NCBI RefSeq assembly: GCF_014396785.1
Contig: NZ_CP060718.1
Span: forward strand, 702,501-766,500
Length of the DNA stretch: 64,000 nucleotides
Direction of reading: 5' to 3'
Source of the DNA: Sphingomonas lutea
Lineage (GTDB): Bacteria > Pseudomonadota > Alphaproteobacteria > Sphingomonadales > Sphingomonadaceae
Made by a program: the position numbers and the translations under genes. A model generated the notes under the pieces. That model was not told the origin of the DNA. It searched no databases and was given only the letters and a program-made list of their open reading frames with translations. Of the stretch, positions 6,607-56,282 are shown piece by piece; position 1 is the stretch's first letter, and each line of letters opens with the position of its first letter.

Positions 6607-8220
6607 GTGTTCGCTATCCGCGCCGATGGGGGTCTAGAGCGAGTGTCGAGAGTCACCAGCAAGGCGGTTCGCATTGCGAGCAGCCATCTCATTACGAGTT
6701 GCGCGACGGGCGCGGCGATCCTGCTGTTCGTTGTGCTTGGTGCGCAGGTGCTGTCACCGGCATCGATCGCCGCACGCCTGCCCGACGCTGCGAACACGCT
6801 GCAAATCGCTTTCCTCCTGAACATTGCGATCATCCTGTTCGGCTGGCGGCGATCCAAGGACCTGCGGCTGGCGCTTGGCGCCTACGAAGAGGCGGACCGT
6901 CTGGCGCAGCGCAATGCGAACACCGACCCCGCGACCGGTCTGTCGAACCGGCGCGAATTGATGCGCGCTTTGACCGAGGCCATCGAGGCAAGGAAGGGCG
7001 GGGTGCTGCTGCTTCTCGACCTCGATCATTTCAAGCGGGTCAACGATTTGCACGGACATCTTGCGGGCGATCAGCTTCTGCGCTCCGTCGCGGACTCGAT
7101 TACCGCGGCTACCCCTGACGCTTCATGCTGGGCCCGGATCGGTGGCGACGAGTTCGCCATTCTCCATCGCGAGCTGACCACGGCCGGCGCAGAAGAGGTC
7201 GCCACGGGCATCCTGGCGCGCCTCGATCAACCGATCGCCGTCGAAGGTGGCCAAGCGCGCGTCTCCGGTTCGATCGGCCTCGCGTGGATCGAGCGCGGCA
7301 GCAGGGAGGAGGACGTCCTGCGCCGCAGCGACGTCGCGCTTTACGCATCGAAGCGCGGCGGACGGAATACGTTTGCCTGGTTCGATCGCGCACTCGAGCT
7401 GGAGCTGGCCGAGCGCCTCAAGCTTGAAGAGGACATTCGCCGCGGCGTGCAGAACGGGGAGTTCGTCCCCTTCTTCCAGCCGCTGATTGATCTCGCCACG
7501 CGCGAACTTGTCGGGTTCGAAGCGCTTGCGCGTTGGCGCTCGCCGACGCGCGGCTTCAGTGAAGCCGAAAACTTCATCGAAGCAGCCGATGCGACCGGCC
7601 TGATCGGCCCGTTGACGATGAGCGTGATCGAGCAGGCGATGGCCGATGCGCGCAACTGGCCGCCGCACCTCAAGCTCGCGGTCAACTTCTCGCCCGTTCA
7701 GTTCCGCGAGCGCACGCTGGCCGAGCAGATCACCAAGATCATGACCAAGACGGGATTCCCCGCGCACCGTCTGGAAATCGAGATCACCGAGGCCTCGCTG
7801 CTCGAAGATCGCGACCAGGCAATCACGATCATGCAGAGCCTCAAGAACCTCGGGGTCAGCATCTCGCTCGACGATTTCGGCACGGGCTACGCCGCGCTGG
7901 CGCAGGTCGACTCCCTGCCCGTCGACCGGATCAAGATCGACAAGAGCTTCATCAGCACGATCGTCAAGAGCGAGCAGACGGCCGCGATCGTGAACACGAT
8001 CGCCAGCCTCGGCCACTCGCTCAACGTGCCGATCACCGCCGAGGGCGTCGAATCCGAAGCAATCCGCGGTGAGCTCAGTAAATATGGCTGCAGCGAAGCG
8101 CAGGGCTGGCTGTTCGGGCGCGCCGTCTCCGCGGAAACGGTCCGTTCGTTCCTGGGGCTGGACCAGGGCTCGGCTCCACCGGCGCAAGATTCGGCGGCGC
8201 GGCGCCGCCGTGCGTCTTAA
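6607..8220 (+). CDS. Membrane GGDEF-EAL bifunctional c-di-GMP enzyme
   Basis: 537 residues from GTG 6607 (GTG 6643 is possible). Two hydrophobic segments at about 25-45 and 60-80 anchor it, followed by a short helix. The GGDEF domain has an intact IGGDEFA motif at about 178-184, predicting diguanylate cyclase activity; no RxxD inhibitory site is seen in the usual place. The EAL domain has intact FEALARW (305-307), DDFGTGY and KIDKSF motifs, predicting phosphodiesterase activity. With both sites intact the net activity cannot be told from sequence. The last codon overlaps the end of a small opposite-strand gene at 8217. Confidence 0.92.
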   Translation: MFAIRADGGLERVSRVTSKAVRIASSHLITSCATGAAILLFVVLGAQVLSPASIAARLPDAANTLQIAFLLNIAIILFGWRRSKDLRLALGAYEEADRLAQRNANTDPATGLSNRRELMRALTEAIEARKGGVLLLLDLDHFKRVNDLHGHLAGDQLLRSVADSITAATPDASCWARIGGDEFAILHRELTTAGAEEVATGILARLDQPIAVEGGQARVSGSIGLAWIERGSREEDVLRRSDVALYASKRGGRNTFAWFDRALELELAERLKLEEDIRRGVQNGEFVPFFQPLIDLATRELVGFEALARWRSPTRGFSEAENFIEAADATGLIGPLTMSVIEQAMADARNWPPHLKLAVNFSPVQFRERTLAEQITKIMTKTGFPAHRLEIEITEASLLEDRDQAITIMQSLKNLGVSISLDDFGTGYAALAQVDSLPVDRIKIDKSFISTIVKSEQTAAIVNTIASLGHSLNVPITAEGVESEAIRGELSKYGCSEAQGWLFGRAVSAETVRSFLGLDQGSAPPAQDSAARRRRAS

Positions 8221-8309
8221 GGCTTTCGGCGCACCGACCAGACGAAGGCCGACAGGCTGCTGACCAAGGCAGCAAGCGCAATCAAGAAGGCAGGATCGAG
8301 AACAAGCAT
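8217..8309 (-). CDS. 30-aa SOS-associated small membrane protein (SidA-like by size and topology)
   Basis: Encodes MLVLDPAFLIALAALV followed by SSLSAFVWSVRRKP: one transmembrane helix (about 7-25) and a basic C-terminus, giving a predicted N-out/C-in bitopic protein. GGAG lies 7 nt before the ATG. A perfect GTTC-N7-GTTC LexA box (8333-8347) lies 23 nt upstream of the start. The gene is only 31 codons and falls below usual ORF cut-offs. Caulobacter SidA, a 29-aa SOS-induced inner-membrane inhibitor of division, is the nearest functional parallel known to me; I claim similarity of size, topology and control, not proven homology. The 3' end overlaps the GGDEF-EAL stop by 3 nt. Confidence 0.65.
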   Translation of the reverse strand: MLVLDPAFLIALAALVSSLSAFVWSVRRKP

Positions 8310-8332
8310 GGGGCGACTCCGAGCGCCATCAT

Positions 8333-8347
8333 GTTCCCTACTTGTTC
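8333..8347 (-). promoter_or_regulatory. LexA (SOS) box, GTTC-N7-GTTC
   Basis: The sequence GTTCCCTACTTGTTC is a perfect match to the alphaproteobacterial LexA operator (direct repeat GTTC spaced by 7). It is also part of two 9-nt direct repeats TGTTCCCTA at 8332-8340 and 8343-8351, one helical turn apart. It lies between the 30-aa ORF start (8309) and a 14-nt palindrome at 8359. Confidence 0.7.
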
Positions 8348-8358
8348 CCTAAGCGCAA

Positions 8359-8372
8359 TAGGAAATTTCCTA
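8359..8372. repeat. 14-nt perfect palindrome upstream of the small SOS gene
   Basis: TAGGAAATTTCCTA is a perfect inverted repeat 12 nt beyond the LexA box, in the presumed promoter upstream region. It may be a second operator or simply the AT-rich part of the promoter; nothing identifies a binding protein. Confidence 0.4.
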
Positions 8373-8418
8373 CTCCGGCGGCGTCGGTCGCGGAATGCAG
8401 GTGTTCGGTTGTGAGGAA

Positions 8419-8505
8419 TGGTGCCCAGGAGAGGACTCGAACCTCCACGCCCTTGCGAGCGCCAGCACCTGAAGCTGGTGCGTCTACCAATTCCGCCACC
8501 TGGGC
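8419..8505 (-). tRNA. tRNA-Leu (CAG)
   Basis: 87 nt with encoded CCA. The acceptor stem GCCCAGG pairs with CCTGGGC, the anticodon stem ACCAG/CTGGT-type arm presents anticodon CAG, a long class II variable arm is present, and the T-arm is GGTTCGAGTCC. Confidence 0.95.
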
Positions 8506-37426: not shown

Positions 37427-37441
37427 GAACATAGTGTGAAC
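37427..37441 (+). promoter_or_regulatory. LexA (SOS) box before the radical SAM-UdgX operon
   Basis: GAACATAGTGTGAAC is a perfect GAAC-N7-GAAC, the reverse complement of the alphaproteobacterial LexA operator GTTC-N7-GTTC. It ends 2 nt before the ATG, so bound LexA would block transcription initiation or early elongation. The transcript may be nearly leaderless, since no ribosome site lies close to the ATG. Confidence 0.7.
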
Positions 37442-56104: not shown

Positions 56105-56218
56105 TGGACGGCGGACTGGGACTTGAACCCAGAACCTCACGTGGCTTATCCCTGCGTTGTCACACCCAGAGAGTCACTTCGTGCCCACGAGTGCTCTATC
56201 CAGTTGAGCTACCCGCCG
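56105..56218 (-). tRNA. tRNA-like element, 114 nt, anticodon region expanded (possible pseudo-tRNA)
   Basis: Has a 7-bp acceptor stem (CGGCGGG/TCCGCCG), discriminator plus CCA, a normal D-arm (GCTC AACTGGATA GAGC) and a perfect T-arm (CTGGG TTCAAGT CCCAG). Between D-arm and T-arm there are about 37 nt more than in a normal tRNA; the best anticodon stem is CTCGT/ACGTG with one mismatch and a 44-nt loop containing a TCTCTG/CAGGGA hairpin. No anticodon can be assigned. It is far too short for a group I intron. Confidence 0.5.
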
Positions 56219-56267: not shown

Positions 56268-56282
56268 GAACAAAATTAGAAC
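56268..56282. promoter_or_regulatory. Possible LexA box in the AT-richer patch
   Basis: GAACAAAATTAGAAC is a perfect GAAC-N7-GAAC. It lies 64 nt before GTG 56346 on the plus strand and 50 nt before the tRNA-like element on the minus strand. With AT-rich background and no strong gene beside it, chance is a real possibility. Confidence 0.4.

Follow-up and report, generated by a model that had tools for sequence, protein, structure and literature searches.

What does a 30-codon open reading frame behind a LexA-type operator encode in Sphingomonas lutea, and is it an SOS inhibitor of cell division of the SidA type? The locus lies in what we call the window, the whole 64,000-nucleotide stretch of contig NZ_CP060718.1 analysed here. 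The operator, GAACAAGTAGGGAAC on the minus strand (8333–8347; GTTCCCTACTTGTTC on the plus strand), matches GAAC-N7-GAAC exactly. It is separated by 23 nt (8310–8332) from the ATG of the ORF, which runs on the minus strand from 8309 to 8217, ends in TAA, has relatives of the same length and encodes the peptide MLVLDPAFLIALAALVSSLSAFVWSVRRKP. A Shine-Dalgarno-like GGAG (8317–8320, minus strand) can be read 7 nt 5′ of the ATG. AlphaFold2 predicts a single membrane helix over residues 6–27 (mean pLDDT 91.4), and the C-terminus, RRKP, is basic. These are the features on which a sequence-only reading of this DNA had based its case, and the coordinates, the spacing, the exact match, the ribosome site and the helix all hold. 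That reading also expected a gene this small to escape standard annotation, and Pfam and NCBIfam indeed contain no description of the peptide. Searches of Pfam, NCBIfam and PHROGs with the window peptide gave zero matches, and a typed consensus peptide gave weak matches to family libraries, all under the curated cut-offs.

Two further elements accompany the operator. A GANTC site, the CcrM methylation motif, occurs as GAGTC at 8315–8319 (minus strand), 13 nt 3′ of the operator and overlapping the ribosome site. A palindrome, TAGGAAATTTCCTA (8359–8372, minus strand), contains the pentamer TCCTA (8359–8363), which is kept in relatives. Along the minus strand the order is thus TAGGAAATTTCCTA (8372–8359), GAACAAGTAGGGAAC (8347–8333), GAGTC (8319–8315) and the ATG at 8309. 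The palindrome is a candidate activator site or −35-like element. We considered that an activator of the DriD or PafBC type might read TCCTA; the available text of PMC12340889 prints no DriD- or PafBC-like site sequence for comparison. Extended with TTGC, the palindrome occurs once in the genome (plus its own reverse match), and therefore does not define a regulon. A sigma-70 promoter scan of 8150–8450 found none. Upstream, on the same strand, lies a tRNA-Leu(CAG) gene (8419–8505), probably outside the unit; on the other side, a plus-strand gene for a GGDEF-EAL protein (6607–8220; Pfam EAL and GGDEF) is convergent with the ORF and overlaps its stop.

Taken by itself, the operator carries no information. 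The window contains three GAAC-N7-GAAC boxes against 1.86 expected, and 25 of 100 shuffles contain at least three; the whole genome has 46 boxes against 52 for a reversed control pattern. Because neither count exceeds chance, a box alone means nothing, and we dropped box enrichment as stand-alone evidence. The same counts are what would be expected if a chance ORF simply happened to lie behind a chance box. The signal beyond chance is the retention of a box before the same ORF in other species.

We therefore turn to the distribution of the peptide. When 100 relatives were searched with the protein, full-length matches were confined to the same genus; there a 22-row profile then recovered 25 copies of full length, spread over 23 of 71 genomes. 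With full-length copies in only 23 of 71 genomes, the gene is not part of a core checkpoint. Across an order-wide sample of 396 genomes, with no more than about 20 candidates scored in each by the profile search, matches at E 1.4e-9 or better occur in at least 32 genomes, all of the same family; the copy in G243, one of the 32, has an internal stop. Outside the sphingomonad family, the best matches listed for the order sample are partial and have E values of 5e-4 or weaker. A class-wide search of 385 genomes, with few candidates scored in each and hence little weight to an absence, likewise gave only weak matches outside the family. Named carriers include Sphingomonas, Erythrobacter, Qipengyuania, Allopontixanthobacter, Aurantiacibacter and Polymorphobacter; Sphingomonas sediminicola and Qipengyuania flava are cultured examples. 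Some genomes have two or three copies of the peptide gene: G007, G022 and Qipengyuania vulgaris, where copies lie on three contigs (L122, L126, L127).

For comparison we assembled 56 copies: the 25 of this genus, 22 from other genera in the order sample and nine new ones from named relatives. Left out were the weaker order-wide matches (G340 downward), 18 of the 29 named-relative loci, which were duplicates, a Phenylobacterium locus (L130) and a partial locus (L131). The reading frame is strongly constrained. A start codon followed by exactly 30 codons is present in 54 of the 56; the stop falls after 30 codons in 55, the exception being L097 with 44. Starts are ATG in 49 copies, GTG in three and TTG in three, with GCT at this position in L103, and stops are TGA (38), TAG (11) or TAA (7). 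Difference rates at the three codon positions are 0.42, 0.13 and 0.62 (54 distinct sequences), and 150 close, unsaturated pairs give a dN/dS of about 0.18. W24, R27 and R28 are found in all 56 copies and S20 is nearly invariant. Judged from these sequence patterns, purifying selection acts on the ORF, which is a genuine coding gene, looks translated and would yield a membrane peptide.

The promoter is conserved along with the frame. An exact GAAC-N7-GAAC lies within 120 nt upstream in 43 of the 56 copies, as compared with 6 of 4604 control windows, and 50 copies have the box with at most one mismatch. TCCTA occurs within 120 nt upstream in 52 of 56 (controls, 138 of 4604), and 48 of 56 carry a GANTC no more than 45 nt from the start (controls, 265 of 4604), where the control windows overlap, come from both strands of the same loci and are mostly coding DNA, and the 56 copies share descent. 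When the copies are reduced to 21 peptides of less than 70% identity, the exact box is found in 15, TCCTA in 20 and GANTC in 16. Since copies were selected by protein only, these promoter counts are independent of the selection. Spacing is also regular within each lineage. Among boxed copies, those of other genera mostly have 4 nt between TCCTA and the box (22 of 24), and those of this genus mostly 11 nt (13 of 19); in 39 of the 43, the closest GANTC follows on the 3′ side of the box at a distance of 3–20 nt. In L017, L018 and L019 the start codon has shifted by about 20 nt, and GANTC is still 10–11 nt from the box; because its position tracks the box in these loci, GANTC belongs to the promoter and not to the ribosome site. 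Five copies lack a GAAC box even when one mismatch is allowed (L025, L086, L091, L093 and L121; the clipped L016 is outside this count). L121 has a GTTC-N7-GTTC box only, and L086, L091, L093 and L121 keep TCCTA though the GAAC box is gone.

To judge from these alignments, the promoter has a fixed design of TCCTA element, LexA operator and GANTC site. The sequence-only reading had proposed that its case be checked by conservation of frame and box together, and both are kept across sphingomonads, in the 54 and 43 copies noted above. With the LexA regulon motif at the promoter, exact in those 43, SOS control of the peptide gene appears well supported. A chance ORF behind a chance box is refuted by the retention of frame, length, box, GANTC and TCCTA across genera; we regard its probability as negligible, the box counts in window and genome notwithstanding.

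The same combination of sites recurs at other genes in this genome. Boxes are found at recA (NCBIfam TIGR02012), at uvrA (TIGR00630), at a radical-SAM gene of the repair type (TIGR03916), and at an imuA-like gene, whose match is under the curated cut-off, followed by a Y-family polymerase-like ORF. Of the 46 boxes, 30 were examined, and among these a GANTC within 25 nt on the 3′ side of the box is seen only at recA, uvrA, imuA and the peptide gene; recA is read opposite to the box as oriented, such that "downstream" there refers to the box and not to the gene. With the peptide gene set aside, GANTC accompanies three of four SOS genes and none of 25 other boxes (Fisher p 0.0011), the radical-SAM gene being the one without it. 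The co-occurrence of GANTC and LexA sites is partly known already, because the available text of PMC7987155 describes conserved GANTC at SOS genes such as imuA and ruvC that can overlap LexA sites, and notes such overlap for Caulobacteraceae and Hyphomonadaceae. A fixed spacing between box and GANTC is absent from that portion of the source.

Several other boxes were seen in passing. Within the window, a second LexA-type box, GAACATAGTGTGAAC (37427–37441, plus strand), directly precedes the radical-SAM gene, putatively of a DNA modification or repair type (TIGR03916), and a third, GAACAAAATTAGAAC (56268–56282), has no obvious gene behind it and a GANTC 8 nt on its 5′ side. Elsewhere in the genome, a LexA-like box at L007 (contig positions 2333749–2333764) lies upstream of an mraZ-like gene heading a division and cell wall cluster, which could be chance, and one at L043 (contig positions 231695–231709) lies inside the start region of a darT-like toxin gene that has darG behind it (a DarTG system). 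Also in the window, at 56110–56218 on the minus strand, is a tRNA-like sequence that ARAGORN does not call; it resembles either a pseudo-tRNA or a tRNA that contains an insertion.

Is the peptide then SidA? The available text of PMC4211646 describes SidA as a 29-residue SOS protein that binds FtsW, and its locus tag, CCNA_02004 in the text available of PMC11034885, adjoins in number CCNA_02005, given as a nucleoside hydrolase in the accessible part of PMC3667746. We located SidA by synteny, seeking the hydrolase in 14 genomes from the genus that includes G1015 (the genus name was inferred). Next to the hydrolase, 7 of 27 loci have a LexA-boxed ORF of 29 residues (MIRVARES...ANLVA and variants) that we take to be SidA; so defined, SidA is present in 72 of 75 genomes of this Caulobacter-group genus, as compared with the patchy 23 of 71 for the window family. 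The two have much in common: a LexA-type operator before an ORF of about 30 codons (29 in SidA, 30 in the window), one membrane helix, no domain of the Z-ring type and a gene of a size that goes unannotated. Comparison of the window family profile with the seven synteny-located SidA sequences by hhalign gives a probability of 2.2%, which amounts to no detectable sequence relation. The window gene adjoins tRNA-Leu and the GGDEF-EAL gene instead of a nucleoside hydrolase. SidA has a basic N-terminus, with a net charge of +1 before the helix and 0 after it, and a helix that reaches the C-terminus; the window peptide has −1 before the helix and +3 after it, from which we predict the opposite membrane topology. 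Of 30 SidA loci, 25 were examined for leaders: 18 of these 25 have an exact box, and none has a GANTC within 80 nt.

The Caulobacter group also has a second peptide, ...TALATLVWAFRRRP (...LVWAFRRRP), found beside SidA in 18 of 75 genomes. In a profile comparison it matches the window family over residues 6–30 with 97% probability (E 1e-10), and SidA with 1.3%. Like the window gene, it usually has a LexA box (16 of 18) and GANTC (16 of 18). Unlike it, the peptide has 29 or 34 residues, depending on the start codon, and the box in most copies lies about 91–95 nt before the ATG; we noticed no TCCTA element, and the literature searched does not describe it. We had considered that this LexA-boxed peptide of 29 or 34 residues in large Caulobacter-group genomes was SidA itself, which proved wrong: SidA is another gene in the same genomes. 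Nor does the family replace SidA, as all 18 genomes carry both. Because they share these 18 genomes, two unrelated LexA-type peptides coexist in the Caulobacter group.

What the sequence-only reading had called a SidA-like SOS peptide is thus an SOS-type small membrane gene, with frame and box kept, that does not belong with SidA; profile, reversed charges, SidA leaders free of GANTC and coexistence all speak against membership. Orthology to SidA, for which length, box and single helix could be cited, is refuted at the sequence level (SidA being the synteny-located sequence), and we give it only the slimmest chance. The best reading is that peptides ending in VWxxRRKP form a new family, separate from SidA, to which the window peptide conforms in its 30 residues, S20, W24, R27, R28, K/R29 and P30.

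The family does not seem to be uniformly under LexA. In Caulobacteraceae, 28 related loci were examined, not counting L160 and L144; 15 of the 28 have no exact box within 130 nt, five 30-residue copies (L150–L154) among them; therefore, family members exist outside SOS control. Three other loci (L201, L204, L205) encode small peptides that end in LVWAIRRPP or similar, have no boxes, and may belong to a wider set of helix-plus-basic-tail peptides. L130, from a Phenylobacterium MAG, encodes a relative of 34 residues and has no box; next to it lie a resolvase-like ORF and a short ORF resembling a DNA methyltransferase. As for a mobile origin, no match to plasmids or phages was found at E 0.1, a search of weak sensitivity with a 30-residue query, and no relative was found in viral contigs.

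No neighbour is conserved across genera among the loci compared, and none that recurs points to division. The GGDEF-EAL homologous cluster recurs at 10 compared loci and is no conserved partner elsewhere. A cysteine-rich ORF starting SSKRL follows the peptide gene in 11 of 56 copies and overlaps its stop by an ATGA or GTGA junction, suggesting translational coupling of the two; three more copies show only the beginning of this ORF. This zinc-ribbon-like MSSKRL... ORF has 74–81 codons (L089, L090, L095, L096, L098, L101, L102, L116, L123, L126, L127) and matches no Pfam family above cut-off. Three downstream ORFs in other genera gave weak zinc-ribbon matches or none.

Small residues at 11, 14, 18, 21 and 25 form one face of the helix, beside S20, W24 and R27-R28, and no charged residue falls within the helix. 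This conserved face, with W24 and R27-R28, suggests packing against one specific partner helix. By the positive-inside rule, the RRKP end would be cytoplasmic and the D-P end periplasmic. Our leading interpretation, to which we assign a probability of roughly 45%, is by analogy: a LexA-controlled single-helix peptide of the inner membrane that binds a late divisome partner and stalls division. LexA would repress the gene until DNA damage removes it and the peptide is made, and the GANTC site might tie expression to replication or methylation state. The small-residue face, S20, W24 and R27-R28 would then pack tightly on one partner, most likely a late divisome membrane protein (FtsW, FtsI, FtsN or similar), such that septum synthesis is held up until repair is complete. 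The job would be that of SidA, done by an unrelated peptide in the opposite orientation. We infer the division target from known SOS peptides, of which SidA and YneA act through FtsW according to the partial sources available. The patchy distribution within the genus and the Caulobacteraceae loci without a box weigh against this interpretation.

It is also possible, though we think it somewhat doubtful, that the peptide modulates another membrane protein upon SOS induction, for example a transporter, a protease, or a respiratory or envelope enzyme, with no direct role in division. The helix face and the cytoplasmic W..RRKP end call for a specific partner without naming one, and a gene that is accessory in its genus and has box-less relatives is what a wider role would lead one to expect. 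Against this, the damage-type promoter is common to recA, uvrA and imuA, and known SOS peptides of such size and type often target FtsW or FtsN in the descriptions available in part.

A third option, which we consider unlikely, is a membrane toxin akin to TisB or DinQ of E. coli that depolarises the membrane and leaves cells dormant and tolerant. TisB and DinQ are toxins with antisense RNA control, and tisB has a long regulated leader. Both are LexA-controlled, single-helix peptides of about 30 residues, and several copies in some genomes, as in G007, G022 and Qipengyuania vulgaris, would suit a toxin. Yet an uncharged helix with a conserved packing face seems unlike an amphipathic pore former. 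The 23-nt gap between operator and start would leave too short a leader for regulation of the tisB kind, and Rfam, to which the search for antisense RNA was limited, matches only tRNA near the gene. DinQ is described, in the source text available in part, as a toxic single-TM SOS peptide, which adds to the likeness.

A divisome-directed peptide would have company among known inhibitors. As far as the partially available descriptions go, YneA of Bacillus, SosA of Staphylococcus and ChiZ of Mycobacterium are likewise SOS-induced small single-pass membrane inhibitors of division, with FtsW as the reported or predicted target; they are larger and belong to other phyla, and YneA has a LysM domain. 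DidA of Caulobacter, on the same kind of partial description, is also a small membrane division inhibitor induced by damage, but has 71 residues, is SOS-independent and activated by DriD, and binds FtsN.

Finally, the open-licence literature searched describes no SOS division inhibitor for sphingomonads and no member of the VWxxRRKP family. This gap in sphingomonad SOS division control becomes testable through a conserved, damage-controlled peptide overlooked by gene finders. GANTC by the operator at the peptide gene, recA, uvrA and imuA also raises the testable question of whether CcrM methylation and SOS promoters are linked. In its fullest form, which we put forward tentatively and think less probable than division stalling as such, our reading is of an undescribed alphaproteobacterial family of LexA- and GANTC-linked peptides, opposite in membrane sense to SidA, that would stall the divisome and serve sphingomonads, and part of the Caulobacter group beside SidA, as a damage checkpoint that also reads replication-methylation state. 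If the peptide acts on FtsW-type proteins, SOS control of division by tiny helices would have arisen more than once within one class.
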